In this document: in pieces, positions 5,343 to 11,798 of the stretch
Layout of the letters: every line of letters begins with the position of its first letter
Numbering within the stretch: the stretch's first letter is position 1
DNA from: a virus
Strand: one strand, 5' to 3'
Length of the DNA stretch: 22,450 bases
Virus record (IMG/VR): IMGVR_UViG_3300043399_000303
Span: 1-22,450 of that record
Translations under genes and position numbers: made by a program
The notes under the pieces: generated by a model
Told to the model about the DNA's origin: nothing
The model's database searches: none
The model's input: only the letters and a program-made list of their open reading frames with translations

Positions 5343-6134
5343 ATGATGAGTTTTACGTTTGACTTAATTTCTGATTTACACACCGATACTTGGGAAACCA
5401 ATAATTGGGAAGACATGGCCACTAGCCCTGTGTGCGTTGTTGCTGGTGATGTTAGCTCTGATCGTGCTCAAGTAGTAGACACGTTGCGTCGACTTGGCAA
5501 AGCATACCAGGCAGTGTTCTACATTGATGGCAACGACGAGCACCAGCCATATCTACATAACCTGGGATATAGCTATGCTGACCTTGTGAGCAAGATCAAC
5601 AAAATACCCAACGTGGTTTACTTGCAAGACAACGTGGTTGTAGTAGATGGTGTAGCTATATTGGGCACCAACGGGTGGTGGGGGTTTGATTTTGACCTAA
5701 GCGTAGACGGACCGAGTTCAGCTGAGTGGTACCAGGAAAAATTTAACTTGACCAACGACGCAGTCAAGGCCATTGCCAAAATGGCCACCAATGACACCAT
5801 GTATCTAATAAACTCAGTCAAACGCCTACAGACCCACCCCGAAGTAGAACGAATTGTAATTGTTACTCACACTGTGCCCGAAGCAGAGCTAATTGAACAT
5901 GATATTGCGCTAGAGGGACACTTGAAGTTCAACACCATGGGCAACAGATACATGAATCAAGTGCTGGATGTTGATTACAAAGAAAAAATCCACACATGGT
6001 GCTTTGGGCACTATCACGGGGGTGTGGATCAAATCCACAACGGTATCAGATATGTCAACAACTGTAGAGGTAGAGGTGATTCACCGTACCAGCAGTACGT
6101 ATATCACCCCCGACGCATTGTAATTGATTACTGA
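5343..6134 (+). CDS. Calcineurin-like metallophosphoesterase
   Basis: The 263-residue protein has the ordered metal-binding motifs of the family: D11-L-H13 in ISDLHTD, G35-D36 in VAGDVSSD, GNDEH (63-67) in place of the commoner GNHE, H176 in IVTHT, and G222-H223-Y-H225 in FGHYHGG. These enzymes hydrolyse phosphomono- or diesters with two metal ions; nucleic acid, nucleotide and protein substrates all occur, so the target is open. The double ATG at 5343 is taken as the start; no clear ribosome site is seen. A TATAAT at 5310-5315, inside the divergent gene, could serve as a -10 box but has a poor -35. The last 7 bases overlap the end of convergent clpS. It is one of the two plus-strand genes here. 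Confidence 0.9.
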   Translation: MMSFTFDLISDLHTDTWETNNWEDMATSPVCVVAGDVSSDRAQVVDTLRRLGKAYQAVFYIDGNDEHQPYLHNLGYSYADLVSKINKIPNVVYLQDNVVVVDGVAILGTNGWWGFDFDLSVDGPSSAEWYQEKFNLTNDAVKAIAKMATNDTMYLINSVKRLQTHPEVERIVIVTHTVPEAELIEHDIALEGHLKFNTMGNRYMNQVLDVDYKEKIHTWCFGHYHGGVDQIHNGIRYVNNCRGRGDSPYQQYVYHPRRIVIDY

Positions 6135-6439
6135 ACCGAATCAGGTTCAAGCTTGATTTGCAAAGGATAGCTTTGGGCACGAGCACTGACTGTGACCTCG
6201 ATGCCTTTTTGCTCAGCAATTTCATAGGGCAGAACTGCAACCACAGCTGATCCAGCTTCGTGAATGTCTTGTGTAATAGTAAACGCAGTTTCTTCGTTGT
6301 AATTGAAAAACTCTACCAAGCTGTCAATCACAAACTCCATGGTAGTTTGGTTATCGTTTAGATAGATCACTTTGAACATTGGAGGCTCTTTTACCGCCTC
6401 GTTAATCTTGGTTCGTGAACTAGTTTCAGATTGTGCCAT
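6128..6439 (-). CDS. clpS: ClpS-like N-degron adaptor
   Basis: ClpS binds proteins with bulky N-terminal residues and hands them to the ClpA or ClpC unfoldase. The 103-residue protein has the full core: PPMFKVIYLNDN (19-30), the TMEF helix start (33-36), H60 in DIHEAG, and a C-terminal YPLQIKLE (91-98). Ligand residues corresponding to E. coli N34, D35, M40 and H66 are present as N28, D29, M34 and H60, while D36 is Asn here. ATG at 6439 has AGGAG at good spacing. The N-terminal extension of about 18 residues is hydrophilic, as in bacterial ClpS. It lies 76 bases downstream of hsp20. No ClpA or ClpP gene is in the window, so it would act on host machinery. Confidence 0.92.
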   Translation of the reverse strand: MAQSETSSRTKINEAVKEPPMFKVIYLNDNQTTMEFVIDSLVEFFNYNEETAFTITQDIHEAGSAVVAVLPYEIAEQKGIEVTVSARAQSYPLQIKLEPDSVQ

Positions 6440-6475
6440 TTTTGCTCCTGCAAGGCTTGTTAAAAATTGTTTCAG

Positions 6476-6499
6476 CAGTGGCAGGATGCCCTGCCACTG
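6476..6499. repeat. Perfect 10-bp inverted repeat in the hsp20-clpS gap
   Basis: CAGTGGCAGG and CCTGCCACTG flank a 4-base loop. No T-run follows directly on either strand, so it is not a classical terminator. If transcription starts near 6503 from the TATAAT at 6515-6510, the hairpin sits about 4 bases from the 5' end of the clpS message, where it could stabilise the RNA. The CCTGC of its 3' arm could also pair with GCAGG in the clpS ribosome site. Confidence 0.7.
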
Positions 6500-6509
6500 T
6501 ATTTACACT

Positions 6510-6538
6510 ATTATATCAGTTTTGATAGGTGATAGCAA
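6510..6538 (-). promoter_or_regulatory. Candidate promoter of clpS
   Basis: TTGCTA (6538-6533) and TATAAT (6515-6510) are separated by 17 bases on the minus strand, across the end of hsp20. The -10 is perfect and the -35 matches 4 of 6. The leader would be about 64 nt and begin with the hairpin at 6499-6476. Confidence 0.5.
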
Positions 6539-6962
6539 TAGCCTTAGGCTTGGCTTCTTCAGGAACTTCACGTTCCAAATACACGCTCAAAATGCCATTG
6601 CGAATACTAGCACTCTTGACTTCGACGTGCTCAGCTAGTGTAAATGTGTGACGGAAGTCACGGCTGCTGATTCCACGATGCAGGTATTCGTGGGCAGCAT
6701 CTTCTTCGGTTTTGCGAGCACCAGTGATAGACAACACACGTTTGTCTAAATTGATGTCGATTTCGCCTTCTGCAAATCCGGCCACGGCCACTTCGATCGT
6801 AACTGTGTTTTCACCAGTTTTGATTACGTTGTGTGGAGGATAGTTAGAGTTGCTTTGCTGCGATGTTACTCGCATGAGTTCATCAAACATTGAATCAAAG
6901 CCAATTCCAAACTTGTGCAGTTGGGGGATATCGAAACTACGAAGAGTGAGAGTTTTTGTCAT
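6516..6962 (-). CDS. Small heat shock protein Hsp20/IbpA-type chaperone
   Basis: The 148-residue protein has an N-terminal FDSMFDEL segment typical of IbpA-like proteins, then an alpha-crystallin domain (about 42-135) with NVIKTGENTVTIEVAVAGFA, ITGARK and the closing IRNGILSVYLERE strand, and a C-terminal tail AIAITYQN resembling the I-x-I oligomerisation motif. Such chaperones hold unfolded proteins without ATP. Hsp20 genes are a recurring feature of aquatic T4-like phages. ATG at 6962 has AAGGAG seven bases upstream. A late-type AATAAATA motif lies at 7031-7024, and a hairpin at 7019-6996 sits in the leader. Confidence 0.93.
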   Translation of the reverse strand: MTKTLTLRSFDIPQLHKFGIGFDSMFDELMRVTSQQSNSNYPPHNVIKTGENTVTIEVAVAGFAEGEIDINLDKRVLSITGARKTEEDAAHEYLHRGISSRDFRHTFTLAEHVEVKSASIRNGILSVYLEREVPEEAKPKAIAITYQN

Positions 6963-6995
6963 GTTAATCTCCTTTTAAAGCAAGTATGACATTAA

Positions 6996-7019
6996 TGTAG
7001 CCCGACCATCGGCGCTACA
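6996..7019. repeat. Stem-loop in the hsp20 leader
   Basis: TGTAGC and GCTACA form the base, with CCGA/TCGG above and a one-base bulge. It falls between the end of gene 7030-7281 and the hsp20 ribosome site. It is not followed by a T-run on the minus strand, so a terminator is unlikely there. If the late-type motif at 7031-7024 is used, the RNA would begin within about a base of this stem. Confidence 0.55.
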
Positions 7020-7023
7020 TTGT

Positions 7024-7031
7024 TATTTATT
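7024..7031 (-). promoter_or_regulatory. T4-like late promoter motif AATAAATA before hsp20
   Basis: On the minus strand AATAAATA fits the NATAAATA late motif known from T4-like cyanophages. The predicted start is near 7018, giving a leader of about 56 nt. A TATAAT (7034-7029) overlaps it and could act as a sigma70 -10, but no good -35 is seen. Confidence 0.4.
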
Positions 7032-7281
7032 ATACACGACGCATTGGTTCTACAAAACGGTATTCGAGCAAATAGTCGTATTTAGGCAACCAAGTCATAG
7101 CAAACAACGAATAGTGTTGGTCGTTGTCAAACGTTATCCGAACTGTGTATTTGTGAATCTTTTTGTTGTAGGCTATACCGTATTTGTCTGCCCACTCATG
7201 CAAATTCTTGTTGAGCTGCTGGTTTACAAAAGCGACAGCTCGATCACCGACATTTTTTGGTAGACTAAATTCGATGTACAT
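7030..7281 (-). CDS. Hypothetical protein, 83 aa
   Basis: Not recognised. A small basic protein starting MYIEFSLPKNVGDRAVAF, with alternating helical and beta-like segments (HKYTVRITF) and many aromatic residues near the C-terminus; no membrane segment. Its start overlaps the last base of the bS21 stop (TGATG), so it is translationally coupled to bS21. The tight linkage suggests a role with the translation/proteostasis genes, but this is inference only. Confidence 0.7.
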   Translation of the reverse strand: MYIEFSLPKNVGDRAVAFVNQQLNKNLHEWADKYGIAYNKKIHKYTVRITFDNDQHYSLFAMTWLPKYDYLLEYRFVEPMRRV

Positions 7282-7505
7282 CAGTACATTTTGCGCGGCA
7301 GCTCTTGTTCGCGAAGCTTCTTACGCCAACGCTGTTTGGCAGCTGATGCTTTGAGCTTGCGAGCTGTAGTGGGCTTGACATAGTGCTCACGATCGCGCAG
7401 ATCGTTCAGCAAGCCCGAAGCTGCAATTTTCTTTTTGAATTTACGCAGAGCGCGGTCTACGTTTCCATCTTGTACTAGTACTGATCTTCCGTGTAATTTT
7501 TCCAT
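7281..7505 (-). CDS. rpsU: Ribosomal protein bS21, phage-encoded
   Basis: The 74-residue protein matches bacterial bS21 along its length: VDRALRKFKKKI (17-28), GLLNDLRDREHYVKPTTARK (31-50) and a strongly basic ASAAKQRWRKKLRE tail. bS21 sits at the 30S platform near the anti-Shine-Dalgarno region and assists initiation on natural mRNAs. Viral bS21 genes are known in many aquatic phages and are thought to load into host ribosomes. The start lies three bases after the clpX stop, and the next gene overlaps its stop. The first ten or so residues differ from E. coli bS21 and form a short extension. Confidence 0.95.
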   Translation of the reverse strand: MEKLHGRSVLVQDGNVDRALRKFKKKIAASGLLNDLRDREHYVKPTTARKLKASAAKQRWRKKLREQELPRKMY

Positions 7506-7508
7506 AGG

Positions 7509-8696
7509 TCAAAGTTCTTTAGGACTATTTACCAAGTTTTGATCAATATCTAGGTGTTTAATACCATCACTGCGATAACGAGCTAGGTTGTACATGTGTG
7601 GCAATAACACACGCTCAAGTTCAGAATGCAAGCCCCGGGCACCAGTTTTGTTCTTGATTGTGCGTTCGGCAATCAAGTCCAAGCTGTCGGGTGTAAATTC
7701 AAGCTCAACTTCGTCTTGACGGAACAACCATTGATATTGGCTCACATAGCTGTGCTTGACATCTTTGAGAATACGAACCAGGTCCTTCTTGTCCAGTTCA
7801 TTGAGTGCTACCCAGCTGGGGAAACGTCCCACAAACTCAGGAATCAACCCAAAACGCACTAGATCATCGGGTGTGGTTTGATCCAGCTGACCCTTGGCAT
7901 CTGACACTACATTGGCAGCGAAGCCAATGCTGGTGCCTTTGATGCGGTTCTTTACAATATTGTCCAGTCCCACAAACGCACCGCCTGCAATAAACAGGAT
8001 ATCACGAGTGTCAATTTCCACAGTGTCGCCAGACGGATGCTTGCGTCCACCTTGCGGCACGATACGGCACTTGGTGCCTTCTACCAGTTTCAGCAAAGCT
8101 TGCTGCACGCCTTCGCCTGACACGTCACGGGTAATCGATGTGCTTTCACTCTTGCGACTGATCTTGTCAATTTCGTCCACAAACACAATACCACGCTGTG
8201 TTTTTTCTAAGTCATAGCCCGACGCTGCATACAATCTGCTGATCAAGCTTTCTACGTCATCACCTACATAACCTGCTTCTGTGAGGCTAGTAGCATCTGC
8301 AATCACAAAAGGCACATCAAGGTAACGTGCCACTGTGCGAGCCAGCAATGTTTTGCCTGAACCAGTGGGGCCAAGCATGAGAATGTTGGCTTTTTCAATC
8401 TCAGTATTTTTGTCTTTGTTGCTGATACGCTTGTAGTGGTTGGCAATAGCCACGCTCAACACCATCTTGGCATTGTCTTGCCCAATCACATACTGATCAA
8501 GATGTTTGCGAATTTCTCTTGGATCAAGACTGGGTTGTGCAGGATCAACGGTCACAGGTTGATCAACCAACAGTGTTTGACATAAGTCTACACACTCGTT
8601 ACAAATAGCAACACTGTCGCCTACAATGAGTTTGGTTACAGTGTCCTTGTGCTTGCCACAAAAACTACAGGTATCTAGATTTTTATTTTCGTTCAT
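7509..8696 (-). CDS. clpX: ClpX ATPase, unfoldase subunit of ClpXP
   Basis: The 395-residue protein (E. coli 424) is a complete ClpX: zinc-binding domain with C10, C13, C32 and C35; Walker A GPTGSGKT (109-116); pore loop GYVG (142-145); Walker B VFVDE (171-175); RKH loop (218-220); the ClpP-docking IGF tripeptide (257-259); GR at 290-291; and sensor-2 TGARGL (351-356). All the motifs needed to bind ATP, translocate substrate and dock on ClpP are therefore retained, so it should work with host ClpP. No ClpP gene is in the window. Its ATG overlaps the stop of the membrane-protein gene as ATGA, and bS21 follows three bases after its stop. Confidence 0.97.
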   Translation of the reverse strand: MNENKNLDTCSFCGKHKDTVTKLIVGDSVAICNECVDLCQTLLVDQPVTVDPAQPSLDPREIRKHLDQYVIGQDNAKMVLSVAIANHYKRISNKDKNTEIEKANILMLGPTGSGKTLLARTVARYLDVPFVIADATSLTEAGYVGDDVESLISRLYAASGYDLEKTQRGIVFVDEIDKISRKSESTSITRDVSGEGVQQALLKLVEGTKCRIVPQGGRKHPSGDTVEIDTRDILFIAGGAFVGLDNIVKNRIKGTSIGFAANVVSDAKGQLDQTTPDDLVRFGLIPEFVGRFPSWVALNELDKKDLVRILKDVKHSYVSQYQWLFRQDEVELEFTPDSLDLIAERTIKNKTGARGLHSELERVLLPHMYNLARYRSDGIKHLDIDQNLVNSPKEL

Positions 8697-10324
8697 TTGT
8701 TGGAGTTTGATTCAAGACGTTGTGCTACCTGAGCCTGTTCACTTTCGCTCAACATGTCAGGGTCGTATTCGCCGCTAGTGATTTTGCTGATCAAGTAATC
8801 AATATAGGCCATATCGTAAGTATAGTTGTCTGATCGGGTCTTGTCAACCGAGATCCAATCATTGCCATTGAATTTATGCAATGTGTTAGGAACTTGGTCA
8901 GTTTTGATCCAAGAATCGCCTTTGCTTGGGTTCTGGGGGAACGTTGGACCGAATCCAAATTTTGGCTCTTGGGGCAGGTATTTGACCCAAGGTAGTTCAT
9001 CTATTAGACCGCGCTCAAACAGTGTACGTTGATGCTTTAGAGTATCATCGGGATTTTCTTGTTTCCATTGAGTCATTGCTGCTCGCATAGCCGGGGATTC
9101 TTCATGATACTCCGGGGGCTCAAGATAATCTCCAGGACGTTCAACATCCGGAATAGTTGCACCGGACAGAGTCAACTCGCCACTGTCCAATGCTCGTGCA
9201 ATGGCTGCTTGCAGCTCTGGATGGTCAGCAATGGGCTCTGGAACACCCGGCTCTAAATCAAGCTTTTCTAATTCTTGAACCACTTCAGATTTAGCAACCA
9301 TGGGCTGCAAGTTTTCAAAGTGAGAGAACCCTGCTGTGAGATAAGGATGTTGTTCTAGTATGCTCTTTTCTGGCTCCGACGGCGGTACCTCCGCAGGAAA
9401 CATCCAGCCCACAGGATGCGGATCTTGTTTGAAATCTTGTACTACAGTGTCTTCCACAGGCAAATCTCCTCCAGTGTCCAACGCTTGTGCAACTTGGCGT
9501 TTCTTTTTCAATTCAGCTTCAAACTCTTCATCCTCTTGAGGCCGTAGTCTCAACAGTTCAAATACTCGTTGCTTTTCCCACTTTAGACTTTCTGTTGCAG
9601 CCAGCAACATCATGATAGCCAGCGGGTCAAACACACTGACCAACAAGATAATTACCCAGCGTACAGCACGTTCTAGCAAGTTTGCGTCAGGATTGTCGCC
9701 ATAGACCAAGGCGGCAATATACTTAACCGGGCCCACTTCGGCTTCGACTTTTCGTACTTCAGCTGCAATAGGCGCTCGTTCTTCGTTAAGTGCGCTAATC
9801 CTTTTTTGACTCTGTTCAATCTCTTTGAGTAAGCGACCACGCTCTGCCTGTTGGCTGCGACGAATTTGCACCGCACGTTCCGCACCCGTTTCTGTTGTTG
9901 AGCGGCCCATAACTTGGTCCACTGCTTCGTCAAGCTGTTTAAGCGCCTTACGGTTAGCATCTATGTTGTCCCGTTCTGTTTTGATTTTTTCGTCGTAGAT
10001 GGCAATCTTGGCTTGCACATCTCCGGATATCATGCCTTGATCTGAGTGTGCTTTTGACAAGAAACCAAAGATACCCATGCTGGTAATGACCATGAGTATG
10101 GCCACAGCAGGCACAAGATATGCCTTCATTAGCCAGCGACAACGGCTCCAATATTCGTGTAGCCACAGTGTGACCACAACCTTTCCAATTTCAAGAATAC
10201 CGCCCATAACGATAATGGGTATTACCGCAGCGGCAAAAATCGCAGTGAGACCTGCGATTGAATAATAGGCGGCAATAACTGATAAACTCAGCGCCACCGC
10301 CAATGTTAGGTAGCTGAGAAACAT
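8693..10324 (-). CDS. Membrane protein with long coiled coil and acidic C-terminal region
   Basis: A 543-residue protein of unknown family. Hydrophobic segments at about 4-20, 23-50, 69-89 and 221-244 give a probable four-helix inner-membrane protein. Residues about 100-198, rich in Glu, Lys, Arg and Gln with heptad-like spacing, form a likely coiled coil between the third and fourth helices. The rest is a hydrophilic, proline-rich tail. Residues 462-495 (FPQNPSKGDSW, then FNGNDWISVDK) resemble the short 'NP..GD.W' modules of phage fibre and virion proteins. A last stretch DYLISKITSGEYDPDML follows. The gene begins five bases after the preceding stop and ends in an ATGA overlap with clpX, so the two are coupled. 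A host-envelope role is inferred. Confidence 0.75.
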   Translation of the reverse strand: MFLSYLTLAVALSLSVIAAYYSIAGLTAIFAAAVIPIIVMGGILEIGKVVVTLWLHEYWSRCRWLMKAYLVPAVAILMVITSMGIFGFLSKAHSDQGMISGDVQAKIAIYDEKIKTERDNIDANRKALKQLDEAVDQVMGRSTTETGAERAVQIRRSQQAERGRLLKEIEQSQKRISALNEERAPIAAEVRKVEAEVGPVKYIAALVYGDNPDANLLERAVRWVIILLVSVFDPLAIMMLLAATESLKWEKQRVFELLRLRPQEDEEFEAELKKKRQVAQALDTGGDLPVEDTVVQDFKQDPHPVGWMFPAEVPPSEPEKSILEQHPYLTAGFSHFENLQPMVAKSEVVQELEKLDLEPGVPEPIADHPELQAAIARALDSGELTLSGATIPDVERPGDYLEPPEYHEESPAMRAAMTQWKQENPDDTLKHQRTLFERGLIDELPWVKYLPQEPKFGFGPTFPQNPSKGDSWIKTDQVPNTLHKFNGNDWISVDKTRSDNYTYDMAYIDYLISKITSGEYDPDMLSESEQAQVAQRLESNSNK

Positions 10325-10328
10325 AAGA

Positions 10329-10649
10329 TTATTTATTGGTGGCGCTGACCACTCTAACTGCTAGCTTAACGCTGATCCAGCTGGCAAAGCTAGCATCAGG
10401 AACGTCAAACCAAACGTTGATTTTCCGGCGTCCCCAATTGCTTTCTAGTTTGCGTTTCACGCGACTTTGTCCGGTCCACTTGCCGTGTCCAAAGACTCGT
10501 TGTGCTTCGCGGATGATAGAGTACCATTGTTTGGCATTTTCTAACTCAACCACGATGCGGTATAGTTGCATAGCATCGGTCGTTGTTTTAAGCGAGTCAA
10601 GGGACTGCAACGTATCATCGCTGACAGGGGTTTCAATTTTGACAGACAT
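10329..10649 (-). CDS. Hypothetical protein, 106 aa
   Basis: Not recognised. It starts MSVKIETPVSDDTLQSLDSL, has an amphipathic helical stretch (AMQLYRIVVELENAKQWYSI), a basic middle (GKWTGQSRVKRKLESNWGRRK) and a beta-like end (SWISVKLAVRVVS). AAAGGA (10659-10654) lies four bases before the ATG. It is the first coding sequence after the structured leader and its promoter, so the leader would directly control it and, by coupling, the membrane protein, clpX and bS21. Confidence 0.7.
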   Translation of the reverse strand: MSVKIETPVSDDTLQSLDSLKTTTDAMQLYRIVVELENAKQWYSIIREAQRVFGHGKWTGQSRVKRKLESNWGRRKINVWFDVPDASFASWISVKLAVRVVSATNK

Positions 10650-10831
10650 AACGTCCTTTCACTGTTGGTTCCTACTGGGCTTACTCCCGGGTATCAGCCG
10701 GGTTTTGACTTGCGTCTAGGACAGTGTCGCACCTCATGGAATTACGCTGATGAGCCACGGCACAAGCCGGGCAATTACCCCCGGCCTCCACTCAGCAACC
10801 ATAATATCCTGGCCAGGCCCGACACTATGCA
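10650..10831 (-). ncRNA. Structured leader RNA, riboswitch-like or autoregulatory candidate
   Basis: Downstream of a consensus-like promoter lies about 180 nt of GC-rich, non-coding sequence with nested pairing read on the minus strand. A closing helix (AGTGTCG 10826-10820 with CGACACT 10729-10723) extends to nine pairs with wobbles. Inside it are GCTGA/TCAGC (10796-10792 with 10750-10746) and an 8-bp hairpin (10787-10764) with an 8-nt loop. On the 3' side, TCCTA/TAGGA (10721-10717 with 10674-10670) encloses a GCAA tetraloop hairpin (10716-10707) and a CCCGG/CCGGG hairpin (10702-10686). No U-tract follows, so it looks like a 5' leader rather than a terminated small RNA. It matches no riboswitch class I can recall. 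Confidence 0.55.
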
Positions 10832-10837
10832 AAGACT

Positions 10838-10866
10838 AGTTTACTAAAAACTATAGAACAAGTCAA
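10838..10866 (-). promoter_or_regulatory. Sigma70-type promoter of the leader/clpX block
   Basis: TTGACT (10866-10861) and TAAACT (10843-10838) are 17 bases apart on the minus strand. The -35 box overlaps the TGA stop of gene 10863-11798. Transcription should begin near 10831, just before the closing helix of the leader RNA. Confidence 0.65.
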
Positions 10867-11798
10867 GCAAATTCTAGAACAATATTGTCTAATTCTTCCC
10901 GAACAAAGTGTTCGTCAGGGTCATAGGCAACACCACGCCAGCGCACCACTGCCAGCACATCGTCCGGAGTCCAGTCATTGTGCCAATAAATGCCGTTGAA
11001 CTCTGCTTGATATGTGTGTCCCGTATCAGTTTCTACTTCGTACTTGCCTTGGCGCACGGGCATAACGTCGGCAGTGAACCAATCAGTCAGTGTATACTTG
11101 ATGTCGTCCATGTCACGGTAGCGTTCATATCCGTTGCCTCGGTTAGATCCAGCAATATAAAACGCATGGTCTGAGCCCTTGCCGTTGGTATTGCCACCGT
11201 AGTTATCTAGTTCTTCATCGTCGTATTCCACGCCCACAACAATTTCGTTGGCGTCAAACTCTGAGATATTAAGCAAGAGTTTTTCAGGATCAAACGGTTC
11301 GCGCAGTTCGATATCGGCTTCAAAGAAACTGCCTTTGTCTGATGTATAACCAAAGTATACTACAGTGCCCGGGGATTGGCTGTCAATCCAAACTTCGTCA
11401 CAGGTACTGAGTTGTACATCACAACCATCAAGATCACTGAGATCACGCTCATAGACCACGTTGCCGTTTTCGTCGGTGACACGCATGGTCCCGGCGTTTC
11501 TGTCTACACCGTTGACATGTCCTATGTTGTCGCAGTCATAATAACAACCAGGAACAAAAGGCAACATGTCTTCAGGCAGGTCCTCGTAGTTCACAGGTTC
11601 ATCACTGCCCCAGGCGCAGTCTGGTACACTGAGTCGGTGTTCGCGGAAGTAATCGTAGACCTTACGATCTACTGTGCCCATGACATACTCGCCGCCGTAG
11701 CCCCAGAGTTCGATCTTGTAGGTACGTGGGGTAAACTTCAGGCGCTGAATCAGCTCTTCGTTGGTGTGTCCTGTTGCTGTGTTGGGTGCGTCAGCCAT
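10863..11798 (-). CDS. Hypothetical acidic protein, 311 aa
   Basis: I cannot assign a function. The protein is strongly acidic with many Asp, Glu, Gly and Tyr, and has no signal peptide or membrane helix. It seems beta-rich, with repeated short strands (TYKIELWGYGGEYVMG, TVVYFGYTSDKGSF, EIVVGVEYDDEEL) and several Cys in the middle (DCAW, CYYDCDN, DGCDVQLSTCDE). AGGA lies about 8 bases before the ATG at 11798. Its start overlaps the preceding gene by 8 bases and its stop lies inside the -35 box of the next promoter, so it closes the ligase transcription unit. A nucleic-acid mimic or cytoplasmic takeover protein is possible but unsupported. Confidence 0.75.
   Translation of the reverse strand: MADAPNTATGHTNEELIQRLKFTPRTYKIELWGYGGEYVMGTVDRKVYDYFREHRLSVPDCAWGSDEPVNYEDLPEDMLPFVPGCYYDCDNIGHVNGVDRNAGTMRVTDENGNVVYERDLSDLDGCDVQLSTCDEVWIDSQSPGTVVYFGYTSDKGSFFEADIELREPFDPEKLLLNISEFDANEIVVGVEYDDEELDNYGGNTNGKGSDHAFYIAGSNRGNGYERYRDMDDIKYTLTDWFTADVMPVRQGKYEVETDTGHTYQAEFNGIYWHNDWTPDDVLAVVRWRGVAYDPDEHFVREELDNIVLEFA

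Follow-up and report, generated by a model that had tools for sequence, protein, structure and literature searches.

Hairpins formed over the Shine-Dalgarno sequence and the start codon control translation initiation, autoregulation of ribosomal proteins via leaders is established, known riboswitch classes usually accompany several genes of a pathway, and the gene 32 operator of phage T4 is a small one. An RNA that is linked to one gene in one phage group, with the product of that gene being basic, presents the usual pattern of an autogenous leader, e.g., that of T4 gene 32 (PMC535899). Other described systems that come close are the phage-borne riboswitch-like RNAs manA and wcaG (PMC2864571) and the tisB mRNA, where a 5' pseudoknot is accompanied by a ribosome standby site ~100 nt upstream (PMC7708055). 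As to phages encoding the ribosomal protein bS21, those described in a study of lake phages were predicted to infect Bacteroidetes, and neither ClpX nor any non-coding RNA comes up in the main text of that study (PMC9723584).

The DNA analyzed here (the whole stretch of 22450 bases, which constitutes a virus record and is referred to as “the window” below) is far shorter than the contigs of its relatives and is, therefore, probably a fragment. Within it lies a leader of ~180 nt, which, judging by sequence comparison among relatives, is a previously undescribed RNA family of a known kind, that of structured translational leaders, carried by large phages known from metagenomes. Located at the head of the message for a small protein, it very probably works as a switch of translation.

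The leader gap, its promoter and its homologues

The gap harboring the leader is 213 nt long (window positions 10650-10862, minus strand), separates a gene for a 311-aa protein (11798-10863) from the gene for the 106-aa protein p106, and is the largest intergenic gap in the window, the next one being 76 nt and the median being -2.5 nt, i.e., an overlap. An earlier note on this DNA, made from the letters alone, had pointed to ~180 nt of non-coding sequence in a nearly gapless genome, and this observation holds, as stops are frequent in all of the sense frames (stop-free homologous RNAs amount to 1/90, 6/90 and 4/90 in the three of them). GC content of the leader is 53-58% vs. ~44-50% in most of the adjoining 100-nt segments, and no tRNA or tmRNA was found in the gap. 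Two other readings of the gap were tried and rejected: a plus-strand one (folding z of -1.0, while the promoter, the Shine-Dalgarno sequence and the covariation all indicate the minus strand), and a leaderless open reading frame starting at GCAUG (suggested by eye in, e.g., L004), the AUG of which is replaced by AUA or ACG in some sequences, among them that of the window, with stops being frequent in all frames.

The promoter that the same note had placed in front of the leader (TTGACT-17-TAAACT) is indeed there; the match taken alone is weak, with 18 promoter-like sites found vs. 12.9 +/- 3.6 expected, and what speaks for it is its retention, as 86/90 relatives score at least 9/12 at the same place and with the same spacing, mostly as TTGACA-17-TATAAT ~6 nt upstream of GCAU. 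The promoter would be a sigma-70-type one and the leader RNA's own.

Homologous leaders, gathered by searches in which p106 and the 543-aa membrane protein served as queries, were fetched from 151 phage-contig loci and represent 90 distinct sequences. The covariance model R1 matches the window at 10818-10632 with 168 bits, and the 90 distinct sequences score 110-183 bits, which is partly so by construction, the model having been built from 42 of them. Low-scoring matches of the model were also seen in RNA-negative loci and are probably due to chance, except for the one in L068, which is in the correct place.

No known class had come to mind when the leader was noticed, and the Rfam check agrees with that: no Rfam 15 family exceeds its gathering threshold in the window, a search of window positions 10550-10950 at E up to 10 returned only unrelated chance matches near the leader, and 13 diverse relatives searched at permissive thresholds gave no match at the leader. 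Neither p106 nor the RNA motif pattern was found in the bacterial genome collection, and neither the leader (as DNA) nor p106 had a match in the isolate phage collection. No description of this leader RNA was found in the literature covered, most subscription papers and preprints lying outside the search.

The comparison of folding energy with that of shuffled sequences, which had also been proposed beforehand, did not go in favor of structure, with z of -1.47 for the 213 nt, -1.68 for the likely transcript, and a mean of -0.39 over 42 relatives. Being within chance both in the window and in the 42 relatives, folding energy was rejected as evidence for structure, and the case, therefore, rests on the comparison among relatives.

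Covariation and anatomy of the RNA

Judging from that comparison, the gap encodes a real folded RNA, which has been kept by compensating mutations across ~90 distinct sequences. Covarying pairs, the search for which had been the earlier note's own suggestion, are present irrespective of the alignment used: in a structure-independent MAFFT alignment, the proposed fold pairs 85.2% of the cells with a covariation of 0.316 (vs. 0.169 +/- 0.007 when shuffled and at most 0.098 when slid), and in the model-fitted alignment of 89 distinct sequences, it pairs 90.3% of the cells with a covariation of 0.398 (vs. 0.183 +/- 0.005 when shuffled and at most 0.108 when slid). To take common descent into account, a tree was made from nothing but the coding sequence of p106; the changes counted along it comprised ~161 both-sided compensatory ones vs. 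6-24 when the partners were slid by 1-3 columns and a mean of 14 (maximum of 29) when they were permuted. Under a strict tree-based null considering all column pairs, 4 pairs have E < 0.05, all of which are in P3 and are 94-99% standard pairs; for the remaining helices, the support comes from helix-specific controls.

Table 1. Features of the leader RNA and the genes following it, listed from 5' to 3' (window coordinates).
Feature	Position	Strand	Remarks
Promoter TTGACT-17-TAAACT	10838..10866	minus	-35 at 10866-10861, -10 at 10843-10838
Structured leader RNA	10650..10830	minus	Probable transcript start GCAU (~10830) to p106 start codon; covariance-model match, homologues in 151 loci
P0, 5' strand AGUGUCGGGCC	10816..10826	minus	Closing helix of the earlier note; partner GGUGCGACACU (10733-10723); lineage-specific, competes with P1
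Purine-rich segment CCAGGAUAU	10804..10812	minus	CAAGGAGAU in most relatives; conserved in alignments, unpaired in consensus model
P3, 5' strand UGGUUGCUGA	10792..10801	minus	Partner UCAGCGUAAUUCCA; strongest covariation
P2 hairpin GG..GCCGGG / CCCGGC..CC	10759..10789	minus	Within P3; length variable
Pseudoknot strand a, GGCU of GUGGCU	10753..10756	minus	Partner AGCC
P3, 3' strand, with conserved internal loop GUAA.U	10737..10750	minus	Alignment/covariation
Conserved unpaired core GAGGUGCGAC	10726..10735	minus	AGGUUGCGAC in relatives; alignment
P1, 5' strands CACUG and UCCUA	10717..10726	minus	Pair with CAGUG and UAGGA
P4 GNRA hairpin GAC-GCAA-GUC	10707..10716	minus	Inside P1; covariation on p106 tree
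P5 hairpin CCCGG-CUGAUA-CCCGGG	10686..10702	minus	Inside P1; loop CUGGUA in most relatives
Pseudoknot strand b, AGCC of GAGUAAGCC	10678..10681	minus	Partner GGCU
P1, 3' strands UAGGA and CAGUG	10660..10674	minus	UAGGA 10674-10670, CAGUG 10664-10660; end directly at Shine-Dalgarno
Shine-Dalgarno/start-codon hairpin GGAC-GUUAU-GUCU	10644..10656	minus	Shine-Dalgarno AAAGGA 10659-10654, AUG at 10649
p106 gene	10329..10649	minus	106-aa basic protein; directly downstream of leader
543-aa coiled-coil membrane protein gene	8693..10324	minus	Next in operon; also in relatives without RNA and p106

The features of the RNA are listed in Table 1; those established by the sequence evidence are P2-P5, a part of P1, the pseudoknot and the start-site hairpin. 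P3, in which 97.5% and 86.2% of cells are paired and a single pair changed on both sides as many as 13 times on the p106 tree, encloses the hairpin P2 (in place of which the L018 group has a perfect short hairpin) and the strand GUGGCU, while P1 encloses, in this order, P4, AAAAC, P5 and GAGUAAGCC. The UCCU/AGGA part of P1 covaries (96.4% of cells paired); its CACUG/CAGUG part is nearly invariant, with sister clades carrying other complementary sequences instead, as assessed by eye. P4 shows 4 to 10 both-sided changes at 2/3 counted pairs, and P5, with 96-98% of cells paired, shows both-sided changes at 4/4. The loop of P3 is joined to that of P1 by a GGCW/WGCC pseudoknot with 99.4% of cells paired and both-sided changes at two pairs; A-U is found in 78 and U-A in 12 sequences, and GGC/GCC has turned into GAC/GUC in L126. 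Conserved bases that are left unpaired comprise GUAARUC, AGGNUGNGAC, AAAACC, CUGGUA and GAGUA.

At the very start of the gene, GGAC of the Shine-Dalgarno sequence pairs with GUCU of AUG-UCU (codons 1-2), forming 4 bp in 70/90 and 3 bp in 20/90 sequences. The pair sets of this start-site hairpin are GGAY/GUCU and the compensated GGUU/GACU, GAAC/GUUU, GUAC/GUAU and GUGU/ACAU; ~9 both-sided changes were counted on the p106 tree, and the hairpin covaries even where codon 2 has changed from UCU to ACU. No supported conserved fold was found in the first 100 nt of the p106 coding sequence.

The helices drawn in the earlier note survive in part: its inner 5-bp helix, long hairpin, GCAA hairpin and CCCGG/CCGGG hairpin are real and conserved, whereas its 7-9-bp closing helix (AGUGUCG/CGACACU) is restricted to the window and a handful of its nearest relatives and, where it varies, does so by mismatches and not by compensation; that model had contained neither the P1 helix, which is conserved, nor the pseudoknot, nor the hairpin of the Shine-Dalgarno sequence and AUG. 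The duplex of this lineage-specific helix, P0, amounts to -18.5 kcal/mol in the window and to -15.9, -12.3, -11.2, -9.3 and -6.6 kcal/mol in five relatives, several of which have mismatches. Since P0 and P1 both use the CACU bases, they are mutually exclusive in the sub-clade of the window, which would suit a switch.

Linkage to p106 and the surrounding genes

The RNA is found directly upstream of p106 in 150/151 loci, and the exceptions either way are contig ends or two diverged loci (L067 and L068, which have kept a p106 homologue while their RNA is degenerate or divergent). Among 14 long contigs, 11 (157-364 kb) have exactly one RNA and one p106, adjacent to each other, and three have neither. 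By comparison, bS21 is missing near 25/59 RNA-bearing loci and present in 19/30 loci without the RNA; five RNA-bearing contigs (45-262 kb) are devoid of bS21, contigs without the RNA carry it, and the genes for the 543-aa protein, ClpX and Hsp20 also occur without the RNA. Because the linkage to p106 is one-to-one, while bS21 and ClpX do not follow the RNA in this way, the controlled gene, as far as gene order can tell, is p106 (together with whatever is co-translated), and not bS21 or ClpX, the association with which, as proposed in the earlier note, is not supported.

As for p106 itself, its pI averages 9.8 (range of 9.1-10.3), and no Pfam, PHROG or PDB sequence relative and no recognized RNA-binding domain were found for it. 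AlphaFold2 predicts a confident small alpha/beta core from approximately residue 28 onwards, preceded by a disordered N-terminus. Structure comparisons yielded a best E of 0.07 against the PDB and of 0.0065 against viral structures with Foldseek, and a best Z of 7.8 with VIA-align, to small ferredoxin-like domains, making the predicted core weakly, and generically, ferredoxin-like.

Third codon positions are more conserved in the N-terminal extension of p106 than in its core (0.62 vs. 0.43), and such conservation is seen over the first 20-25 codons (window 10575-10649; L018:3680-3760; approximately 3580-3770 in L067/L068). The extension is out of frame with p106 in the L018 group and is replaced by a short open reading frame in L067/L068, and even in sub-clades that have this 5' stretch in another frame or as an open reading frame by itself, motifs such as CTTARA..AACG before ATGCAC persist. 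The first open reading frame may, then, partly act as a regulatory leader peptide, or work at the RNA level; as the first start codon is out of frame with p106 in that sub-clade, a simple on/off of p106 initiation cannot fully explain matters there.

Several observations were also made on the neighboring genes. ClpX, ClpS, Hsp20 and bS21 form a dense proteostasis/translation set (window 6128-6962 and 7281-8696), which is likewise seen in relatives without the RNA. In the phage contigs L038 (922-3996) and L039, three genes of an ABC transporter are inserted between p106 and the 543-aa protein gene; these comprise ABC_tran + TOBE_2 and two BPD_transp_1 permeases, and resemble a polyamine-type importer. 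A ROSE-like RNA thermometer is seen upstream of Hsp20 (window 6963-7029, minus strand; L018:7140-7204; L030:7143-7206; L015:7167-7234), where Rfam ROSE_3 matches fall below the gathering score (E of 0.003, 0.28 and 0.87) and the window has the same hairpin and a UUGCU/AGGAG-type element. This heat-shock gene of the phage may be controlled by a thermometer of the host type.

Possible modes of action and comparison with known systems

The reading preferred here, in which our confidence is about even, is that the leader forms the 5' UTR of the mRNA for the p106 operon and regulates p106 translation in cis, with the p106 protein as the likeliest signal. Transcription from the leader's own promoter would provide this 5' UTR; the pseudoknotted domain would stack via P1 directly onto the start-site hairpin, and whatever binds or melts the domain would set whether the Shine-Dalgarno sequence is open. 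The signal is suggested to be p106 itself (autogenous feedback) because of the strict one-to-one linkage, the basic product and the precedent of T4 gene 32 (PMC535899). Speaking against such an autogenous model are the lack of a recognized RNA-binding domain in p106, its predicted core being only weakly ferredoxin-like, the retention of p106 in L067/L068 with their degenerate or divergent RNA, the out-of-frame first start codon in a sub-clade, and the many conserved unpaired bases, which would equally suit a small-molecule pocket.

It is conceivable, if on the doubtful side, that the pseudoknotted domain senses a signal of the host and determines when in the infection the p106 operon is expressed; the leader would then represent a riboswitch class confined to phages, or else an RNA by which the phage monitors the state of the host's ribosomes. 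A phage riboswitch proper, in which a metabolite or ion of the host would bind to the pseudoknotted domain as the aptamer, with the Shine-Dalgarno hairpin as the expression platform, seems a rather doubtful proposition: the size, the pseudoknot, the many conserved unpaired bases and the coupling of a covarying folded domain to a covarying Shine-Dalgarno/AUG hairpin, as a riboswitch class requires, are all in line with it, as are the mutual exclusivity of P0 and P1 in the window's sub-clade and the manA and wcaG precedents (PMC2864571), but the RNA is tied to one gene without a known metabolic role in one phage group, was never found with a metabolic gene or in a bacterial genome within the searched collections, and its gene context yields no ligand candidate.

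Unlikely, too, is a ribosome standby or recruiting leader, where the fold and the purine stretch CAAGGAGAU would serve to load the 30S subunit or S1, enabling the hidden start to be translated efficiently, or preferentially, during infection. The start site is sequestered, a pseudoknot is present in the folded element upstream, ~150 nt upstream there is a conserved, Shine-Dalgarno-like run of purines for which the model has no partner, and the tisB mRNA offers a precedent (PMC7708055); however, conservation of the unpaired core bases exceeds what a standby site should need, and the purine stretch varies (AAAGAG, AAGGAA, GGGGAG) and has diverged in the L018 group.

An RNA that works in trans, be it a ribozyme or, as had also been entertained in the earlier note, a processed small RNA, with its place before p106 being incidental, might be argued for from the own promoter and the compact fold, yet is very improbable, given that the conserved pairing extends through the Shine-Dalgarno sequence into codon 2, that no terminator-like site was found on the minus strand between the RNA and p106, and that, contig ends aside, the RNA always came with p106. 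Lastly, binding of the leader by the phage bS21 in a ribosomal-protein-type feedback, another suggestion of that note, has the presence of bS21 in the same operon of the window to recommend it, but is scarcely credible and was rejected, being largely refuted by the distribution of bS21 across loci and contigs given above.

Gene control in large phages, which are mostly known from metagenomes, is almost unexplored, and the locus described here adds a well supported pseudoknotted RNA family with a covarying start-site switch, which, together with p106, makes for a ready-made testable pair. Should p106 turn out to be the ligand, this would be an unusually elaborate autogenous leader; should it not, the RNA would hint at some host signal being sensed by these phages.

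When set against described systems, the gene 32 operator of T4/RB69 (PMC535899) resembles this leader in that a pseudoknot lies ahead of the start site in the leader of a phage mRNA, with one gene per RNA and, presumably here too, control of translation initiation, but its repressor is a single-strand DNA-binding protein, whereas p106 is an unrelated 106-aa basic protein and a putative binder, and the leader here has ~180 nt, five helices and a start-site hairpin. The manA and wcaG RNAs of cyanophages (PMC2864571) are likewise structured leaders carried by phages, and candidate riboswitches, although they are found upstream of several kinds of genes, in contrast to this RNA, which is found only upstream of p106 and has no Rfam match. 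The tisB mRNA (PMC7708055) is similar in that its ribosome-binding site is hidden and lies a long way downstream of a 5' element that is folded and contains a pseudoknot, but is an E. coli toxin mRNA active only after processing, while the RNA described here has been retained by many phages and comes with a start-site hairpin that itself covaries. Autoregulatory leaders of ribosomal proteins, finally, are similar in that a structured leader precedes an operon among whose genes may be one for a ribosomal protein, and differ in that the RNA described here does not track bS21 across genomes.
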